Source of the DNA: Verrucomicrobiia bacterium
GTDB taxonomy: Bacteria > Verrucomicrobiota > Verrucomicrobiia > Verrucomicrobiales > DEV007
NCBI GenBank assembly: GCA_030430255.1
Contig: JAUIGD010000009.1
Span: forward strand, 1-41,732
Length of the DNA: 41,732 bases
Direction: 5' to 3'
In this document: positions 20,981 to 30,352 of the stretch, piece by piece
Layout: the number at the start of each line of letters is the position of its first letter
Position numbering within the stretch: the first letter of the stretch is position 1
The notes under the pieces: model-generated
Database searches by the model: none
Told to the model about the DNA's origin: nothing
What the model saw: the letters and a program-made list of their open reading frames with translations, nothing else
Program-made: the position numbers and the translations under genes

Positions 20981-23900
20981 ATGCGCACCGCCCCCACCCT
21001 CCTCGCGATCGCGCTCCTCGGCGCTTCCTCGCCGGCAGCCGAGCGCCCGAACGTCCTCCTCCTCCTGGTCGACGACCTCAAACCGGCGCTCGGCTGCTAC
21101 GGCGACCCACACGCCAAGACGCCCCACATCGACGCCCTCGCCGCGCGCGGCATGCGCTTCGACCTGGCCTACTGCAACCAGGCGGTGTGCGCCCCCTCGC
21201 GCTTCACGCTGATGCTCGGCTCGCACTCGACCTCCACCGGCCTCTACGGCCTCGGATCGAACCTGCGCCAGACCCTTCCCGGCGCGGTCACGCTGCCGCA
21301 GCACTTCGCGAAACACGGTGGCTACCGCACCGAATCGCTGGGGAAGATTTTCCATATCGGCCACGGCAACCACGGCGACCCCGCCTCCTTCTCGGTCCCG
21401 CACTTCAAAGAGAAGGTCATCGAGTACGTCGACCCGGCGAGCAAACCCGACGGCGCCATCACCCGCGAGGAGGCGATGTTTCAGAACCGGGCCGCGCCGC
21501 CCGGCGGCATGAACGCGCTCCCCCGCGGCGCCGCCTTCGAGTCGCCAGACGTCGGCGACGACGCTTACGCCGACGGCCGCGTCGCCGCCGAGACGGTGCG
21601 CCGGTTGCGGGCGGCCAGAGCCCGCCGGACGGAGGACGGCACCCCCTTCTTCATCGCCGCCGGCTTCGCCCGCCCCCACCTGCCCTTCTCCGCGCCGAAG
21701 CGGTATTGGGATCTCCACGACCCCGCGAAACTCCCGCTCGCCGAGAACAGAGACCTCCCCGCCAGTTCGCCCGGCGTCGCCCACAAACGCGGCGGCGAGA
21801 TCCGCAACTACTCCCCCGTCCCCGACAAAGACCAGCCGGAGGTCGAGATCGACGACGCGCTCGCCCGCCAGCTCGTGCACGGCTACTACGCCAGCACCAG
21901 CTACGCCGACGCCCAGATCGGGAAGGTGCTGGGTGCCCTGGACGAACTCGGACTCGCCGGCGAAACGATCGTCGTCCTCTGGGGCGACCACGGCTTCCAC
22001 CTCGGTGACCTCGGCATCTGGACCAAACACACCAACTACGAACAGGCGAACCGCATCCCCATCATCATCGCCGCCCCCGGGGTCACCGAGCCTGGCAGTT
22101 CGACCAAGCAGCTCGCCGAGAGCGTCGACCTCTTCCCCACCCTCGCCGAACTCGCCGGCCTCCCCGCCCCCGCCGGCCCGCAGCCGGTCGACGGCCTCAG
22201 CCTGGTCCCGGTCCTGGAGGATCCGGACGCCCGCGTGCGCGACCACGCTTACCACGCCTACCCGAAGGGTGAGCTCGGCCGCGCGATCCGCACCGAGCGC
22301 TACCGCCTCGTCGAGTGGGGCGACGAGTACGAACTCTACGACTACCAGGCGGACCCGCTCGAGACGGAGAACCACGCCAACGACAGGCCCGAGGTGGTCG
22401 CCGAGTTGAAGGGGATCCTCGACAGCTACCCCCCTCCGGTCGGCCGCGATGGCCGGAGAACGCGCGCCGCGATCGAGACGCCGGAGATCGCCGGCCGCGA
22501 GATCGAGATCACCGCCACGGTGCGCGCCGACTCCCCCCAGGGCGTGGTTTTGGCGCAGGGCGGCCGCGAACAAGGCTACGCGCTGCACTTCATCGATGGC
22601 GTCGCAGCGCTCGACGTCCGGATCGACGGCGAGGTCACCCGCCTGCAGGCCGGGGCGAAATCCTCGGGCACCATCCGGCTCGCCGCCCACATCACCACCA
22701 CGGAGCTCCGCCTCAAAGTGGACGGCGCACGGGTCACCGGCAAGTCCCCCGGCCTCATCGCCACCCAACCCAAAGACCCGCTCTCGGTCGGCCGCGATGA
22801 GCTGAGCGCCGCCGGCGACTACCCCGAAGGCGGCAACGCCTTCACCGGCCGCGTGATCGGGCACCGGGTGATCGCCACCCGCCCGCCCCCGGCGGGCGCG
22901 GGAGCCGGCGAGGTCCCGACCAAACAAGGCAAGCTCGTCATCCCCGCGGCGCAGGTCGCACCGGTCGCCCCGGTGATGGGCCGCGCCGAGATCGAGGCCG
23001 GCTTGCGGTCCCACGACCGGGCGCTGTTCATCAAGAACGACTGGATCCGCGACCCCTACATCACCCTCGGTCCCGACGACCGTTTCTATCTCACCGGCAC
23101 CACCATCGACGAAGACGACCCGCGCGAGGAGAGCGATCCGTACAACATCGGCCTCGCCGACATCTCGGCCGTCGGCGCCACCGTCCGCGTCTGGCGGAGC
23201 GAAGATTTGATCGACTGGGAGTACCTCGGCACCCCTTACACCCTCGCGGACAGCCATCATCCTGACCCGGGCGACCGCGTCTGGGCGCCCGAGTTGCACT
23301 GGATCGCCGAGATGGGACGCTGGGCGCTCGTGCATTGTCCGAGACAGAAATCGGTGTTCGCACTCTCCGCGGGACCGGAACTGCGGGGTCCCTGGTCGCA
23401 CCCGCTCGGCGACAACCACCTCCCCAAACACGATCCCTCGCTCTATCGGGACGGCGAAACTTGGTGGATGCTCTCGGAGAATACCAGGATCCAACCGCTC
23501 GCCCCCGACTTCTCCCGCTTCACCTCCACGCCGACCCGCATCGACCCGGCCGGCACCCGCCCCGACCCCGATGGCGGCAAGCCCATCAGCCGCATCGGCC
23601 ACGAGGGCGCCACCATGATCCGAGTGGGCGGGAATTTCGTGCACTTCGGCACCGCCTGGTCGACCGACCGGGGGCGCAAGGGCAGCTACAACCTCTACTA
23701 CTGCTCGGCCGATACGATCACCGGCCCCTACGGCCCTCGGAGGTTCGCCGGGCGCTTCCTGGGCCACGGCACACCGTTCCAAACACGCGACGGCAATTGG
23801 TGGTGCACCGCCTTTTTCAACGCCGACGTGCCGCCGCTCCCACGCGAGGGCATCCGCGAACGCGACCTCTCGGAGACCGCGCAGACGATCAACGGGCGCG

Positions 23901-24013
23901 GAACCACCATCGTCCCGCTCGACGTCCGCGTCCTCGACGACGGCGAGGTCTCCATCCGCGCGAAAGATCCGGACTACGCCCACCCGGGCCCCGACGAGGC
24001 GCAGAAGTTCTAG
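20981..24013 (+). CDS. Exported sulfatase / LamG-like / GH43-like fusion
   Basis: A 1010-residue, apparently bifunctional enzyme. Residues 1-20 are a signal peptide. Residues about 22-490 are a sulfatase: LLLVDDLKP metal site, CAPSR with formylglycine Cys70, GFARPHLPFSAP, and WGDHGFHLGD. Residues about 500-655 form a concanavalin-like/LamG-type beta sandwich (GYALHFIDGVAALDVRIDGE, FTGRVIGHRVI). Residues about 680-1000 resemble a five-bladed GH43-type propeller, with DPYITLGPDDRFYLTGT (base Asp691), VWAPELHWI, HDPSLYRDGETWWM (modulator Asp818), and GHEGATMI (acid Glu875); all three expected acids are present. Family 43 is the best match, but GH117 or a related clan member is possible. It would remove sulfate and a terminal sugar from one glycan. 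It is last in the galactose block. Confidence 0.87.
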   Translation: MRTAPTLLAIALLGASSPAAERPNVLLLLVDDLKPALGCYGDPHAKTPHIDALAARGMRFDLAYCNQAVCAPSRFTLMLGSHSTSTGLYGLGSNLRQTLPGAVTLPQHFAKHGGYRTESLGKIFHIGHGNHGDPASFSVPHFKEKVIEYVDPASKPDGAITREEAMFQNRAAPPGGMNALPRGAAFESPDVGDDAYADGRVAAETVRRLRAARARRTEDGTPFFIAAGFARPHLPFSAPKRYWDLHDPAKLPLAENRDLPASSPGVAHKRGGEIRNYSPVPDKDQPEVEIDDALARQLVHGYYASTSYADAQIGKVLGALDELGLAGETIVVLWGDHGFHLGDLGIWTKHTNYEQANRIPIIIAAPGVTEPGSSTKQLAESVDLFPTLAELAGLPAPAGPQPVDGLSLVPVLEDPDARVRDHAYHAYPKGELGRAIRTERYRLVEWGDEYELYDYQADPLETENHANDRPEVVAELKGILDSYPPPVGRDGRRTRAAIETPEIAGREIEITATVRADSPQGVVLAQGGREQGYALHFIDGVAALDVRIDGEVTRLQAGAKSSGTIRLAAHITTTELRLKVDGARVTGKSPGLIATQPKDPLSVGRDELSAAGDYPEGGNAFTGRVIGHRVIATRPPPAGAGAGEVPTKQGKLVIPAAQVAPVAPVMGRAEIEAGLRSHDRALFIKNDWIRDPYITLGPDDRFYLTGTTIDEDDPREESDPYNIGLADISAVGATVRVWRSEDLIDWEYLGTPYTLADSHHPDPGDRVWAPELHWIAEMGRWALVHCPRQKSVFALSAGPELRGPWSHPLGDNHLPKHDPSLYRDGETWWMLSENTRIQPLAPDFSRFTSTPTRIDPAGTRPDPDGGKPISRIGHEGATMIRVGGNFVHFGTAWSTDRGRKGSYNLYYCSADTITGPYGPRRFAGRFLGHGTPFQTRDGNWWCTAFFNADVPPLPREGIRERDLSETAQTINGRGTTIVPLDVRVLDDGEVSIRAKDPDYAHPGPDEAQKF

Positions 24014-24434: not shown

Positions 24435-25649
24435 TCAGCGAGATAGGATCTCGATCACCATGATGCCGACCGGCGTCCCGACGACATAGCCCCACACGCC
24501 CACCAGGATGCCGGGAGTGACAAGTTTCGGCCAACCCGCACTCACCGCCATGGCGGCCGCGCTGGGCGCGCCCCCAAGGTTCGCGTTCACCGCAACCAGC
24601 AACTCCTCCAGATTGCCCTTGAGCAACCTCCCCACGAGAAGCGTAAAACCTAGATTCGTCACTGCGATGATGCCGCAGAAAGCGAAGAAAATCGGGGCAT
24701 CACTGATGACGGTGATGAGGTCGGCGGGGAAGCCGAGGGTCAGCAGGAACATAGCCAGGAGGTAGGAACCGAATTCTTCGGCACCGTTCACTTTCGCCAT
24801 CGGCTTGGCGAAGATGGTGGCCATGGCGAGGGAGACCAGAGTGATGATGACGAACGGGTTGGTCACCAGGTTGCCAACCATCTGCCAGGTCAGCGAGGCA
24901 CCGGAGGTGTCTCCGATCCATGACTTCACGGCGGCATGGATCATCCCGGAGACGGCGAAAGCCGCGAATGCGAAGGCGAAGGCGCGGGCGATGTCGAGCA
25001 GCGAGATCTCTTTGCGCTTCCAGTGCTCGGCGGCGAGGTTGCTCGCCGCATCCGGGTCGCGATCCTTCGAATGCGGGTGCGGGTAGCGCGAGCGGAACCA
25101 GGCGCTGGCACCGATGGCCAGCAGCGCGACGAAGAGCACCGCCATGACAAAGTTATCGGCGACGATGAGCGGGTTGGAGACGGTCGCCTCATCGACGTCG
25201 TAGCTGTTCTTCACCGCAGTGAAATTGACACTACCACCCATGTAGCTACCCGCCATCATGCCGGCGGCGTGCTCCGTCTGCGGGGATCCGATCGCGCCCT
25301 TCAAGGCGAAGACGGCGGCGAAGGTGCCGATGATCGTCCCGATCGCGCTGATGTGGAAAATGAGAAACAGGCGCCCGCCGCTACGGATGATCTCGCGCAG
25401 GTTCGCGCGGAAGAGGAGCAGCGGGATGGCGAGCGGGACGAGCCAATCACCCACAAAATCGTAGGCCGGGGCCGAGGGCGGAACGATGCGCAGGTTCGAC
25501 AGGACCATGGCGACCACCAGGGCGACGACAGGGGCACTCAGCCGCGCAGCCCAGCGGTATTTTTGCTCCATCCAGATGGCGGTGGCGGTGCCGCAAGCGA
25601 TGATCGCCCAGAGCGTGGTGTGATTGTCGGGGTGGATGAGCGGGTCCAT
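24435..25649 (-). CDS. DUF819 family membrane protein (putative transporter)
   Basis: A 404-residue polytopic protein with about ten to twelve hydrophobic helices. Family features include APVVALVVAMVLSNLRIVP, VGDWLVPLAIPLLLFRANLR, GMMAGSYMGGSVNFTAVKNS near residue 140, and the C-terminal NLGGAPSAAAMAVSAGWPKL. The last two Gly/Ser/Asn-rich re-entrant-like segments occur in both halves, suggesting an inverted-repeat carrier like other secondary transporters. DUF819 has no established substrate. It is the last gene of the five-gene operon, three bases after the dipeptide epimerase stop, which suggests uptake or export of the peptide or amino acid handled there. Transporter function is inferred. 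Confidence 0.88.
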   Translation of the reverse strand: MDPLIHPDNHTTLWAIIACGTATAIWMEQKYRWAARLSAPVVALVVAMVLSNLRIVPPSAPAYDFVGDWLVPLAIPLLLFRANLREIIRSGGRLFLIFHISAIGTIIGTFAAVFALKGAIGSPQTEHAAGMMAGSYMGGSVNFTAVKNSYDVDEATVSNPLIVADNFVMAVLFVALLAIGASAWFRSRYPHPHSKDRDPDAASNLAAEHWKRKEISLLDIARAFAFAFAAFAVSGMIHAAVKSWIGDTSGASLTWQMVGNLVTNPFVIITLVSLAMATIFAKPMAKVNGAEEFGSYLLAMFLLTLGFPADLITVISDAPIFFAFCGIIAVTNLGFTLLVGRLLKGNLEELLVAVNANLGGAPSAAAMAVSAGWPKLVTPGILVGVWGYVVGTPVGIMVIEILSR

Positions 25650-25652
25650 TTC

Positions 25653-26672
25653 CTAAGTCAAGGTGACACCGTTTCCGGGCACATCGGGGTAGATCGGGCG
25701 ACCGCGGTCGAGGCGGACGCCGGAGGCGACATCGCCGCCCTCCGCCACGAGCACCGCACCGTCCATGTCGACGTAGTCGAGCTGCGGGAGCAGCTGGGCT
25801 ATGGCGCTGATGCCGACGCTGCTCTCGGTCATGCAACCGACCATCACCTGTAGCCCGAGCTCGCGCGCGCTGGCGATCATGCGCCGACCCGGGGTGAGGC
25901 CGCCGGCTTTGCAGAGTTTGATATTGATCCCGTCAAACACCCCCGCGCAGCGATCGACGTCGTCCTCGGTGAGGCAGCTCTCGTCGGCGATGACCGGGAG
26001 CGCGCACTCGGCGCGGACTTTCTTCATGCCCTCCCAGTCATCGCGCAGCAGCGGCTGCTCGAGGAACTCGACACCGAGCTCCTTCAGCTCCGGCGCGAAG
26101 GCGATGGTCTGCTCGGCGGTCCACGCGGTGTTCGCATCGATGCGGAACACGGCGCTGGTGTGTTTGCGAAGCTCGCGGACGATCTCCAGGTCGCGGTCGG
26201 TGCCGAGCTTGATCTTGTAGATCGACCAGCCGTCGAACTCCGCCATCTTGGCGATCATCTTGTCCATGTCGTCGATGCCGATGGTGTAATCGCTATCCGG
26301 CACCTGAGTGTTGTCGAGCCCCCAGAGCTTCCAGACGGGTTCGCCGCGGAGCTTGCCCCACAGGTCGTGCGCCGCCTGGTCGAGGCCGCAGAACGCGAAG
26401 CGATCGTGCCCGAGCACCGGCTCCAAGCGGTCCCACAGGGCAGCGGGATCATCGAGTGTCTCCGCCTCGATCGCGCCACGCGCAGCCTCGAGCGAGGCGC
26501 GCATGGAGGCGGGCGAGTCCTCGTAGGCGAGCCCGGAAGCACACTCGCCGTAGCCGGTGACGCCGTCCTGGCTGAGTTCGACGAGCAGGTTCTCCTGCAC
26601 CGAAGTCGTGCCTAGCGAGATCGTGAACGGGTGCCGCAGCGGCAGCTGGATGTCGGTGATTTTTAGTTCCAT
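25653..26672 (-). CDS. Dipeptide epimerase (L-Ala-D/L-Glu epimerase type, enolase superfamily)
   Basis: A 339-residue enolase-superfamily enzyme. The catalytic Lys is in the KxK motif (Lys153/Lys155 in YKIKLG). The metal ligands are Asp179 (RIDANTAW), Glu205 (LEQP) and Asp230 (IADES), and the opposing Lys is in INIKLCKAGG. The C-terminal DxD-type motif YVDMDGAVL and GCMTESSVG match dipeptide epimerases, which bind the substrate's alpha-ammonium through DxD. The reaction is inversion of the C-terminal residue of a dipeptide, classically L-Ala-D-Glu from murein. Specificity in this family varies widely. One base separates it from the serine hydrolase upstream, and there is no signal peptide, so it acts in the cytoplasm. 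Confidence 0.92.
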   Translation of the reverse strand: MELKITDIQLPLRHPFTISLGTTSVQENLLVELSQDGVTGYGECASGLAYEDSPASMRASLEAARGAIEAETLDDPAALWDRLEPVLGHDRFAFCGLDQAAHDLWGKLRGEPVWKLWGLDNTQVPDSDYTIGIDDMDKMIAKMAEFDGWSIYKIKLGTDRDLEIVRELRKHTSAVFRIDANTAWTAEQTIAFAPELKELGVEFLEQPLLRDDWEGMKKVRAECALPVIADESCLTEDDVDRCAGVFDGINIKLCKAGGLTPGRRMIASARELGLQVMVGCMTESSVGISAIAQLLPQLDYVDMDGAVLVAEGGDVASGVRLDRGRPIYPDVPGNGVTLT

Positions 26673-26673
26673 G

Positions 26674-28275
26674 TTAGTTTCGGTCGAAGAACACGTTGCA
26701 GAAGTTGATGCGCTGGCACCTGCCGCCCGGGTCGGTGAGGAAGACCAGGTGCTCGTTAATGTACATCCCCGGCGGCAGTTCGAAGACGTTCTGGTTCACC
26801 GGCGTCAGGCGGTAGTCGACCATGTTCTCGGTCATCGCGTAGAGATTCCCGTGGCGCTCGCTGATGATGATGGGGATGAAGTCCGGCCCGTAGCTGCCGA
26901 GGAACGCCTCCCAGCCGGGACGAGATCGCTCTCCCGCCCCGGGGTCGACGCGGCGGAAGTTCTGGTTGCCCAACGAGAAACCGGTGGCGTCTGCGGCGAA
27001 CTCCACGCCCGCGTCGAAATTGATTCGGCTGTTCGCCAGAAATTTCCCTTCGCCGGTCGGGGCGAACTTCGTCGGTTGGCCAGAAACATCGCCGACCAGC
27101 GCGCCATCCTCCACCCAGAGTTTCGCCCAGTAGCTCTGCGATTCGTATTCACCGGCGAAGCGATCGAGATCGGTGGCGGCGAACTTTTCAACGGGTTCGT
27201 TTGTCTCGCCGAGCTTGGCCTCTAACATCGCGGACAGCGCGGCGGTACGGATCCGCGCGACGCGGCCGCCGGCGATGTCTTCGTTTGCGAGCACCACCAC
27301 GGCCACTTTTGCTTCCGGGAGTATGACGACCGAGGTGCTGAAACCGTAGACCGCTCCGCCATGACCGACCGATCGGTGCCCGCGGAATTTTCCGACGACA
27401 AAGCCCAAGCCGAAGCCGTTCTCGTCCTCGGTGAGCTGCGGTGTCCACATCTCGGCGAGCGATTCCGGTTTCACCAAGCCGCCCCCTTTCGCAAGCATCG
27501 CGGAGGCGAAACGCGCCACATCTCCGACCGAGGCGAACAGGTTTCCGGCGGGAACGGTGCCAAGATCGAAGCTCGGCGCTGCCCGCCGCGTCCAACCGCC
27601 ACGGCCGTCGGTGACGCGCATCTGCGAGCCGACTAGACCGCCCTCCGGGAGATTCTCCAGCAGCCAGGCCGAGCGCTTGAGCCCAAGCGGCGCGTGAATT
27701 TTTTTCTCCTGATACTCGGCGAACGCCATGCCACTGGCGCGCTCCACGAGGTGTCCGGCGAGGGTCGCGCCGATGTTCGAGTAGCGCGTTTTCTCAGTAG
27801 GACGTGTCACCAGAACGCCGCTCCGCAGGCTGGCGGTGGTCGCCGCGACGCCCGGTTCGTCCGCGTCGAAGTAGCTGCCGATGGTCGACTCGCGCTGCAA
27901 GCCGCTGCGGTGGCTGAGCAGCTGGCGCAAGGTCACGGGCGGCGCGTCGGCGAACGGGTTGGCCGGCAGGAGTGCGGCATCGACCGGGGCGTCGAGGTCG
28001 AGCTCACCCGCCTCCACCAACTGCATCACAGCGATTGCGTTGAACAGTTTCGAGATGCTGCCGACGCGAAAAATCGAATCCTCGCCGGCCTCGCCGAAAC
28101 CTTTCGCGTAGACGGTGTTCTGGTCATCTACCAACGCGACCGCGACGCCGCCGATCCCCCACTCCGCCATCTCCTCGCGCACGACGGCCTCGAGTTTCGG
28201 GATCTGTTTCGAGTAGTCGGCGGCGGGCATCGTGGCGGTGGGCAGGGCGAGCAGGATCAGCGCGATGGGTTTCAT
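26674..28275 (-). CDS. Exported serine hydrolase of the beta-lactamase/class C PBP family
   Basis: A 533-residue protein with a signal peptide (residues 1-18). The beta-lactamase-fold domain spans about 22-345. The nucleophile motif SxxK is Ser73-Ile-Ser-Lys76, the YxN motif is Tyr165-Ser-Asn167, and the third motif is His305-Gly-Gly in VGHGGAVYGF. All three are intact, so it should be active as a D,D-peptidase, D-aminopeptidase or esterase. The C-terminal ~180 residues form a beta-rich domain (YESQSYWAKLWVEDGALVGD) like the lipocalin-type tails of D-aminopeptidase-like proteins. Its ATG overlaps the stop of the alpha-oxoamine synthase (ATGA). It could release the dipeptide or D-amino acid used by the downstream genes. 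Confidence 0.9.
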   Translation of the reverse strand: MKPIALILLALPTATMPAADYSKQIPKLEAVVREEMAEWGIGGVAVALVDDQNTVYAKGFGEAGEDSIFRVGSISKLFNAIAVMQLVEAGELDLDAPVDAALLPANPFADAPPVTLRQLLSHRSGLQRESTIGSYFDADEPGVAATTASLRSGVLVTRPTEKTRYSNIGATLAGHLVERASGMAFAEYQEKKIHAPLGLKRSAWLLENLPEGGLVGSQMRVTDGRGGWTRRAAPSFDLGTVPAGNLFASVGDVARFASAMLAKGGGLVKPESLAEMWTPQLTEDENGFGLGFVVGKFRGHRSVGHGGAVYGFSTSVVILPEAKVAVVVLANEDIAGGRVARIRTAALSAMLEAKLGETNEPVEKFAATDLDRFAGEYESQSYWAKLWVEDGALVGDVSGQPTKFAPTGEGKFLANSRINFDAGVEFAADATGFSLGNQNFRRVDPGAGERSRPGWEAFLGSYGPDFIPIIISERHGNLYAMTENMVDYRLTPVNQNVFELPPGMYINEHLVFLTDPGGRCQRINFCNVFFDRN

Positions 28276-29390
28276 AGTAGCGAGCCGAGTTCGGAGAGCA
28301 GGCGGTCGATTTGGGCGTCAGTGTGCGCGGGGGTGACGGCGAATCGCAAGACTCCTTCGCGCGGGATGCCGGAGTAGGCGGGCACGAATGGCAGGAGGAT
28401 GCCGTGCTCTTTCAGCGCTTGGTGGATGCCGCGCATCTGGTCGGTATCGCCAACCGTGACACCGAACTGGGCCGTCTCGGTCTCCGGAGCGGAGAGGCCG
28501 AGCTCGCGCAGCCCCGCACGCAGGCGCAGGGTGTTGGCGCGCAGCCGGGTGCGCAGCTCCGGCTCCGCCATGACGATCTCCAGGGCACGCGCGGCGGCGG
28601 CGGTGATCGCCGGTGGCTGGGGGCTCGCGCCGTCGAAGTAGTGGGAGGAACGCCGCGCACGCCCGACGAACTCGCGGGTCCCGGGAACGATCCCGCCGAA
28701 GCCGCCGAGAGCTTTCGCCAGCGTGCCGCAGACGGCGATCTCCACACCGCCGACCGCTGCGCCGCCGTTGGTGTTTTCCCACAAACCGAGCGCATCCAGC
28801 AGCCCGCGACCGTCGGGGCCGAGGACGCCGAAACCGTGGGCGTCATCGAGCAACAGCGTCGCCTCGAGCCCGTCGAGCGCCGCCAGGTACTCCGCCACCG
28901 GCGCGAGCGTCCCGGACGACGGGCCGACCGCATCCGCCATCACTAACACCTTCCCGCCACGAGCAGACAGGCGCTTTAGATCCGCGGGATCTCGGTGCTT
29001 AAAGGTGACGACCTCACCGCCGCCGAGCCGCGCCGCTTCGCGCACGCAGAAGTGCGCTCCCTCGTCCACCAGGATCAAATCCGCATCGCCGAGCGCCCCG
29101 ACCATCACGTGGTTTGCCACGTATCCGCTGCCGAAGTAAAACGCATCCTCAGTACCGAAAAATTCCGCCGCGCGGCGCTCGATATCGAGCAGCGGATCGC
29201 TCGTGCCATACCCGGCGCGCGAGGTCCCGGTGTGCAGGCCGTATTTTTCAAGAGCCGCGCAACCCGCCGCGACCACCTCATCGCGCGACTGGATTCCCAA
29301 GTAACTTGTGCCACCGAAGTAGAGGTAGGTCACGCCATCAATCACCGTCTCGGGACCGCTGCGCGATTGCATCAGGTGGGGCCGGCTCAT
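28272..29390 (-). CDS. Alpha-oxoamine synthase family PLP enzyme (BioF/KBL/SPT-like)
   Basis: A 372-residue fold-type-I PLP enzyme. The family motifs are NYLG-like TSYLGIQ (28-34), GTSRAGYGTSDPLLDIE (55-71), HFCVREAARLGGG with the ring-stacking His113, the DDAHGFGVLG pair (Asp183, His185), and the Schiff-base lysine Lys226 in CGTLAKALGG. The C-terminal RFAVTPAHTDAQIDRLL is standard. Alpha-oxoamine synthases condense an amino acid with an acyl-CoA and lose CO2, as in biotin, 2-amino-3-ketobutyrate and sphingolipid synthesis. The sequence does not pick one. Being coupled by 4-bp overlaps to both an exported amidase and an exported serine hydrolase is unlike bioF or kbl loci, so I do not assign a name. 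Confidence 0.9.
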   Translation of the reverse strand: MSRPHLMQSRSGPETVIDGVTYLYFGGTSYLGIQSRDEVVAAGCAALEKYGLHTGTSRAGYGTSDPLLDIERRAAEFFGTEDAFYFGSGYVANHVMVGALGDADLILVDEGAHFCVREAARLGGGEVVTFKHRDPADLKRLSARGGKVLVMADAVGPSSGTLAPVAEYLAALDGLEATLLLDDAHGFGVLGPDGRGLLDALGLWENTNGGAAVGGVEIAVCGTLAKALGGFGGIVPGTREFVGRARRSSHYFDGASPQPPAITAAAARALEIVMAEPELRTRLRANTLRLRAGLRELGLSAPETETAQFGVTVGDTDQMRGIHQALKEHGILLPFVPAYSGIPREGVLRFAVTPAHTDAQIDRLLSELGSLL

Positions 29391-30352
29391 CTTGAGTCCT
29401 TATCGCCCTGCTCGTGGAAGTCCGCAGGCACCTCCAGCTCGATGATCTCGCCATAGAGATCTGGTCTTCGCTGGCGGAAGTTGCGGCTAGTGGCGCGGTT
29501 CTGGCGGACGTTTTTGAGATCTACCGTCGCGGAAATGTACGATTCCTCTTCGTCCGGACAGCGTGCGCGGATCCGTGTCGGCCACTTGGCGATGTCGCCG
29601 ATCATCGTCCCGCCGCCGTACGATTGGTTGGTCGTGACCATCGCAACGAGGTTGCGGAACATCGTCGACTTGACGATGAAATCTTCCACCTCTCCTCCGC
29701 GCCCGTTGATCCAGACGATGAGTTCGGCGCCTTTCAACGACAGCACGCGGGCGGGCTCTGGGAACCAACCGTCGTAGCAGGTCATGATCCCCACTTTGCC
29801 GAAGTCGCACTCGACGACGGGCAGTTCTTTGCCCTCCTCCATGATCCACTCCGGGTCGTTCTTGGCGAGCCAGTCGCGATCCTTGCCGGCCGGCGGTTGC
29901 GCCCACGGCGGTTGCGTCCTGTCGTATTTGTCGATCGCCGCGTGGGTCTTGTAGTACTTATTAATGATCTCGCCCTGCCGGTCGAAGGTGAGCGCGGCGT
30001 TGGCGAATTGCCCGCCTTCCTTGATCTCCCAGCAGCCGACGATCACATAGATTTTGTTCGCTTTGGCCGCGTCGGCAATCCTCTCCGTCTCGGGGCCGGG
30101 GACCTGGATCCTGCCGAGCACGTATTCCGGGAATACCACCAGCTGGGCACCGTCGGTTCCCGCCCGGTCGATGTACGGGATGAGGGTCCCGGTGACGTCG
30201 TAGCCCTCCTTCGGGAAGTCGCCCTTGTCGTAGCCGCGCACCTGAACGGCGGCGATTTTCACCTTCCCGTCCGGAGCGCTTTCATCGGCCGGGGCCGGGC
30301 CGAGCATGAACATCAGCGCGAGCACTACGAGTGGGGGGCGGGTGGCAATCAT
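29387..30352 (-). CDS. Exported nitrilase-superfamily carbon-nitrogen hydrolase
   Basis: A 321-residue protein read from the ATG at 30352; a TTG at 30388 would extend it by twelve residues. The ATG gives a normal signal peptide (MIATRPPLVVLALMFMLGPA). The catalytic triad is complete: Glu76 in VVFPEYVLG, Lys135 in KYYKTHAAI, and Cys192 in GIMTCYDGWFPE. Nitrilase-fold amidases hydrolyse linear amides or nitriles; export is uncommon. It is the first gene of the five-gene operon, and its stop overlaps the next ATG. It may deamidate or trim an amide outside the cytoplasm before the product is processed. The C-terminal SRNFRQRRPDLYGEI resembles the tail of plant-type nitrilase/amidase branches. Confidence 0.9.
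   Translation of the reverse strand: MIATRPPLVVLALMFMLGPAPADESAPDGKVKIAAVQVRGYDKGDFPKEGYDVTGTLIPYIDRAGTDGAQLVVFPEYVLGRIQVPGPETERIADAAKANKIYVIVGCWEIKEGGQFANAALTFDRQGEIINKYYKTHAAIDKYDRTQPPWAQPPAGKDRDWLAKNDPEWIMEEGKELPVVECDFGKVGIMTCYDGWFPEPARVLSLKGAELIVWINGRGGEVEDFIVKSTMFRNLVAMVTTNQSYGGGTMIGDIAKWPTRIRARCPDEEESYISATVDLKNVRQNRATSRNFRQRRPDLYGEIIELEVPADFHEQGDKDSR

Follow-up and report, generated by a model that had tools for sequence, protein, structure and literature searches.

Genes at the locus

The window analysed here is a 41,732-nt stretch of DNA from a Verrucomicrobiia bacterium (GCA_030430255.1, contig JAUIGD010000009.1), and the locus in question, at 24435-30352, holds five minus-strand genes (Table 1). 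They encode a CN_hydrolase (NIT), an alpha-oxoamine synthase (AOS)-like enzyme of the pyridoxal phosphate (PLP) type, a serine hydrolase of the S12/class C beta-lactamase fold (SER), a dipeptide-epimerase-type enzyme (EPI) and a DUF819 membrane protein. NIT and AOS overlap by 4 bp, as do AOS and SER, while 1 bp separates SER from EPI and 3 bp separate EPI from DUF819. A first-pass annotation of this DNA had read the five genes as one functional unit, and its coordinates, strand and four junctions are exactly reproduced. All five Pfam assignments exceed their gathering scores, and a hydrophobic N-terminal export-type segment is found in NIT and SER and not in AOS and EPI. Third-position GC of the five genes, NIT included, is 0.81-0.88 against about 0.90-0.94 for most other genes in the window, a compositional difference that is consistent with acquisition.

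Table 1. Features of the locus, in window coordinates.
Feature	Coordinates	Strand	Length	Description	Domain evidence
NIT	29387..30352	-	321 aa	exported CN_hydrolase	Pfam CN_hydrolase
AOS	28272..29390	-	372 aa	alpha-oxoamine-synthase-like PLP enzyme, non-canonical subfamily	Pfam Aminotran_1_2
SER	26674..28275	-	533 aa	S12/class C beta-lactamase-fold serine hydrolase, conserved C-terminal domain, N-terminal export-type segment	PF00144, residues 28-344
EPI	25653..26672	-	339 aa	dipeptide-epimerase-type enolase-superfamily enzyme, cytoplasmic	Pfam MR_MLE
DUF819	24435..25649	-	404 aa	membrane transporter of CPA/AT clan	PF05684, 272 bits (gathering score 27)

A conserved unit of four genes

Comparison within the order to which the bacterium belongs reduces the conserved unit to four genes (24435-29390). 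AOS is present in three of 142 genomes, and in five of 387 in a larger sample, the window's own genome included. Genomes from a different and from a third family of the order (G003 and G101) have the identical arrangement AOS-SER-EPI-DUF819, with protein identities of 63/60/73/56% and 51/47/71/46%, respectively; a gene order kept at 46-73% identity in two other families indicates that the linkage exceeds chance. In another genome, G712, the contig terminates within SER. NIT, by contrast, adjoins the AOS cluster in none of the order relatives and, at E<=1e-40, is matched in none of 112 other genomes of the order, so that it is a local addition and not part of a five-gene system. The unit originally proposed thus holds for SER, the transporter, EPI and AOS, which are joined here and recur in other phyla, but not for NIT.

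The four components differ in how widely they occur. SER of the window kind is found in four of the 142 genomes, each time adjoining EPI; in the fourth of these (G032) the SER-EPI pair stands at a contig end, where the locus is cut. EPI proteins of the same subclade occur in 12 of the 142 and are stand-alone genes wherever SER is missing from the neighbourhoods read, which suggests that an epimerase widespread in the order was recruited into the cluster. DUF819 of the cluster type is found only within the AOS clusters of the order sample, and four other genomes carry a distant DUF819 of a different subgroup (about 25% identity) elsewhere, outside any such cluster. In G101 (L007 4398-8872) and in a further carrier, G501 (L109 11496-16152), AOS is preceded by one PSCyt/PSD1 and one DUF1501 gene, the latter overlapping AOS by 4 bp in G101.

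A non-standard branch of the alpha-oxoamine synthases

A tree of 52 AOS proteins places the window AOS in one clade of 11 (support 100/96), apart from E. coli KBL and BioF. The clade unites the window protein with those of four order relatives, two Planctomycetota, three Alphaproteobacteria and one Betaproteobacterium. BioF and SPT are the best NCBIfam models, and the protein falls below every NCBIfam AOS cut-off. A BioF embedded among bio genes in relatives had been named at the outset as a possible identity; at 211.6 bits against a cut-off of 426, and with no bio genes beside any copy read, it was rejected. The AlphaFold model (pLDDT 93.7) aligns with SPT, ThAOS and KBL at template modelling scores of 0.86-0.90, which indicates the fold common to these enzymes, BioF and ALAS. 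Also in common with them are the PLP-binding residues H113, D182, H185 and K226 (window numbering) and the C-terminal R349; the PLP contacts are kept in 11/11 clade members.

The clade departs from the family at other positions, which were compared with 80 ordinary AOS from the same scan, a set that includes KBL and BioF and is biased toward related motifs. In E. coli KBL numbering these positions are N50, A137/S138, S185 and P358, corresponding to T28, F114/C115, P157 and Y339 of the window protein. N50 is Asn in 79/80 ordinary AOS, whereas the clade has Thr in 9/11, with one Ser and one Asn. Ser at 185 is equally constant (79/80) and gives way to Pro or Ala in nine clade members, two retaining Ser; the adjacent M186, again found in 79/80, is Ser, Ala or Thr in 10/11. 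The His-Ala-Ser column reads H-[FY]-[CS] throughout the clade (11/11), where the second residue of ordinary AOS is Ala (69/80) or Ser (11/80). The first Pro of the 'PATP'-type loop, P358, is invariant in the comparison set (80/80) and is Tyr in all 11 clade members. The N-terminal stretch is shorter as well: 29 residues precede the Y30 column, where ordinary AOS have a median of 51.

These positions have been discussed in characterised enzymes. The Asn (KBL N50, SulA N53) is thought to act with an Arg in activating the substrate carboxylate as leaving group in SPT and SulA (PMC9304779); some SPTs carry Tyr in its place. His-Ala-Ser has been described as strictly conserved in AOS (PMC6148460), and the 'PATP' loop is known to be mobile (PMC11906848). 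With the Asn lost and both motifs replaced, condensation with an acyl-CoA cannot be assumed, and the first-pass view of the synthase as an enzyme linking an amino acid with an acyl-CoA is insecure. The related first-pass statement that all catalytic residues are intact applies to NIT, SER and EPI and to PLP binding by AOS, but fails at N50, S185 and P358. Judged by its residues, the window AOS is a member of an uncharacterised, non-standard branch of the family. A step other than canonical decarboxylative acyl-CoA condensation, such as racemisation or retro-aldol/retro-Claisen cleavage, is slightly favoured over the canonical reaction.

Hydrolases, epimerase and transporter

Both hydrolases carry the expected residues, E76/K135/C192 in NIT and the S12 motifs S73xxK76, Y165xN167 and H305GG in SER, whose PDB matches include ClbP (3o3v, 4e6w). 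EPI has K153xK155, the metal ligands D179/E205/D230, K252 and D302xD304, and so shares KxK, the D/E/D ligands, the second Lys and DxD with YcjG, B. subtilis YkfB, the B. theta enzyme (3iji, its best PDB match) and the E. faecalis enzyme (3JVA). It differs from YcjG in having T23 in place of R24, a residue that has been listed among the presumed determinants of specificity in certain dipeptide epimerases (PMC3965090); the E. faecalis enzyme likewise reads L-G-T there. Every AOS-linked EPI has Thr in this column except that of Variovorax, which has Leu. Arg is found in YcjG, in a B. finegoldii enzyme beside a C40 peptidase, in DgcA and in the Persicobacter and Opitutaceae-type enzymes, and His in a Deinococcus enzyme beside NlpC/P60.

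The best NCBIfam model of EPI is the DgcA-type racemase of the DgcN-DgcA D-glutamate pathway (220 bits, cut-off 400), although EPI has neither a DgcN partner nor the side-chain Arg. From its residues a free-amino dipeptide is the likely substrate. DxD was dropped as proof of a dipeptide substrate, since DgcA has it too. A second EPI copy, 79% identical, lies in the same genome on contig C249 (L101 10279-14247) and is followed by a single open reading frame (ORF) with esterase and Amidohydro_3 domains that runs off the contig end. DUF819 has been placed in the CPA/AT clan (PMC8396727); its predicted structure (pLDDT 42.7, from a 3-row alignment) was discarded.

Recurrence on proteobacterial plasmids

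In a collection of 72,556 plasmid records, a tblastn search with the window AOS and a separate search with the window SER (E<=1e-40) independently reach the same loci. Full-length SER relatives occur on only 11 of these plasmids, nine from Ensifer and one each from Nitratireductor and Ochrobactrum, and in the nine Ensifer records and Nitratireductor AOS lies at most one gene from SER. A hypergeometric value for this overlap was not used as evidence, nine of the records being Ensifer; one for SER and EPI in the order was likewise set aside, as it counted 13 genomes whereas 12 with close EPI are tabulated. These SER proteins align over 89-96% of the window SER, C-terminal domain included, at about 30% identity; those of Ensifer and Nitratireductor have no export segment.

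The surroundings of the pair vary. SER is directly adjacent to AOS in Ensifer (four records read, the other five judged from match coordinates); in Ensifer sp. PDNC004 the AOS match begins 7 bp past SER, with peptide ATP-binding cassette (ABC) genes ahead and an M55 D-aminopeptidase after. Nitratireductor has the order substrate-binding protein-permease-permease-SER-EPI-AOS, with a 4-bp overlap between EPI and AOS. Variovorax brings together EPI, an S12 hydrolase, a major facilitator superfamily (MFS) protein, an M81/MlrC-type peptidase, AOS, RidA and a D-amino-acid-oxidase (DAO)-family oxidoreductase, and a second S. meliloti AOS comes after genes for an oligopeptide ABC system and for a C69 dipeptidase. 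The type of transporter is thus exchanged (DUF819, ABC, MFS), gene order shifts, and M55 can replace EPI. Since the partners persist while order and transporter differ between phyla, a shared function is indicated and not the simple recent transfer of one operon.

Elsewhere the searches returned less. DUF819 had no match on the plasmids, and nothing was found on viral contigs. A scan of genome contigs with the AOS alignment gave at least 80 loci, and among the matches listed AOS always stood alone, with no partner. In Rhizobium sullae the AOS neighbours dapF, lysA and M14 seemed murein-related; they were not used, as ectoine transport genes and insertion sequences lie alongside.

A possible route for salvage of D-residue peptides

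With moderate confidence, we read the four-gene core as a salvage operon for small peptides with D- or otherwise unusual residues. SER would trim the peptide, outside the cytoplasm in the window organism and apparently inside it in Ensifer and Nitratireductor. DUF819, or elsewhere an oligopeptide ABC system or MFS protein, would carry the product across the membrane. Cytoplasmic EPI could then invert the carboxyl-side residue of a dipeptide other than L-Ala-D-Glu, letting ordinary peptidases cut, a job for which M55 may be the equivalent in Ensifer. The amino acid or amino ketone so released would finally be the substrate of the AOS-like PLP enzyme. From the gene linkage, the families, motifs and AOS clade observed, and from the modelled AOS fold, we infer the direction of flux, the dipeptide substrate and the direction of transport.

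Two lines of evidence point in this direction. SER without a signal sequence and a peptide importer beside it in Ensifer and Nitratireductor fit uptake and catabolism better than synthesis, so that of the two roles first suggested, peptide salvage and synthesis of a small acylated metabolite, the latter is less favoured. In addition, RidA and the DAO-family enzyme in Variovorax, M55 in Ensifer, C69 in S. meliloti and the Amidohydro_3/esterase ORF behind the second EPI speak for catabolism of peptides or D-amino acids. One of the known systems nearest to the unit is the Dpp/DppA type of locus for D-aminopeptidase and peptide transport: the Ensifer copies join a peptide ABC system, SER, AOS and M55, while in the window M55 and the ABC system are lacking and EPI and DUF819 take their places. 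We class the unit among peptide-salvage operons, as a variant with an AOS-like enzyme from an uncharacterised clade.

Several observations weigh against this assignment. S12, MR_MLE and DUF819 are functionally diverse families. The unit is rare, given the five AOS carriers in 387 genomes of the order, and its parts are not kept everywhere: G501 has AOS-SER-EPI together with DUF819 missing, Ochrobactrum has ABC-SER-M55 without AOS, and AOS is solitary in two Planctomycetota. Because the EPI subclade is widespread in the order as single genes, its role may be a general one, and the case for a free-amino dipeptide substrate is weakened by the presence of D302xD304 in DgcA, annotated as an N-acetyl-D-Glu racemase. 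AOS, with its H, D, H, K and R kept, may still condense with an acyl-CoA.

A biosynthetic cluster with exported prodrug removal is unlikely, though it is the alternative that survives best. The retained AOS fold and PLP residues, the export of SER in Verrucomicrobiota with ClbP among its matches, and the patchy occurrence of the unit, as often in biosynthetic clusters, would all suit it. However, no copy includes a ligase, a nonribosomal peptide synthetase, an acyl carrier or a gene for acyl-CoA supply; the Ensifer and Nitratireductor copies, with their unexported SER, lie beside ABC genes of the peptide-import type; and AOS carries substitutions in the C-terminal loop and at residues tied to carboxylate activation.

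Breakdown of a specific peptide made by other organisms, nonribosomal or cyclic, with AOS acting on an odd beta-amino or keto residue, seems more doubtful still. It is suggested by the mlr microcystin cassette, which consists of the periplasmic, S12-like, 59 kDa MlrB, the MFS protein MlrD and the cytoplasmic M81 enzyme MlrC (PMC12474180). SER resembles MlrB in size and layout, and both systems have a hydrolase, a transporter and a cytoplasmic peptide-processing enzyme. The Variovorax paradoxus plasmid (L130 1899-13526) has S12, MFS and M81 genes in a row, an order that recalls mlrB-mlrD-mlrC, with EPI and AOS and with TonB receptor and ExbBD genes nearby. Yet no mlrA gene was seen, the Verrucomicrobiota copies are without M81 and MFS, the window has an epimerase and an AOS-like enzyme in place of mlrA and mlrC, and transporters of the DUF819 and dipeptide ABC types point to small substrates.

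Murein peptide recycling is very unlikely. It would pair an S12 D,D-peptidase with an L-Ala-D/L-Glu epimerase, after the pattern of E. coli ycjG-mpaA and Bacillus ykfABC, and the 3iji match and the D-Ala-D-Ala carboxypeptidases among S12 enzymes favour it. Against it, the specificity Arg of YcjG is replaced in all AOS-linked EPIs, which makes L-Ala-D-Glu from murein an unlikely substrate. Inspection of the ORFs flanking the window genes and of those in L006, L007 and L109 gave no NlpC/P60, LD-carboxypeptidase or MpaA; the partners are S12 and AOS, against C40 or MpaA for known dipeptide epimerases. Such a role should also be more general than a unit seen in about 1-2% of the genomes sampled from the order. 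The murein-type dipeptide of the first-pass annotation is disfavoured for the same reasons of specificity and partnership.

Returning to salvage of D-residue peptides, a more ambitious version joins two proposals. In it, the AOS-like clade would act on amino acids derived from such peptides and catalyse, in place of decarboxylative acyl-CoA condensation, a reaction new to the AOS family; and together with SER and EPI or M55 it would form an undescribed salvage pathway in at least Verrucomicrobiota, Alphaproteobacteria and Betaproteobacteria. We put this combination forward tentatively, as conceivable but short of an even chance. A literature search, with most subscription journals outside its reach, found no paper joining these families, in agreement with the first-pass remark that no described pathway links the activities.

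The unit would provide a genetic handle on the use of D-residue peptides by environmental bacteria. It draws attention to a branch of a textbook PLP family that is uncharacterised and whose conserved substrate-side residues have changed in concert, and DUF819, a family without a known substrate, gains a candidate substrate class in small peptides or their products. Recurrence with swapped transporters in cultivable Ensifer makes the hypothesis open to experiment.

Neighbouring genes

On the plus strand of the window, at 20981-24013, sulfatase, SGSH_C and GH43 glycosidase domains are fused in one ORF. Its neighbours are genes for a GH2-type protein, a sugar ABC transporter and a galactokinase.

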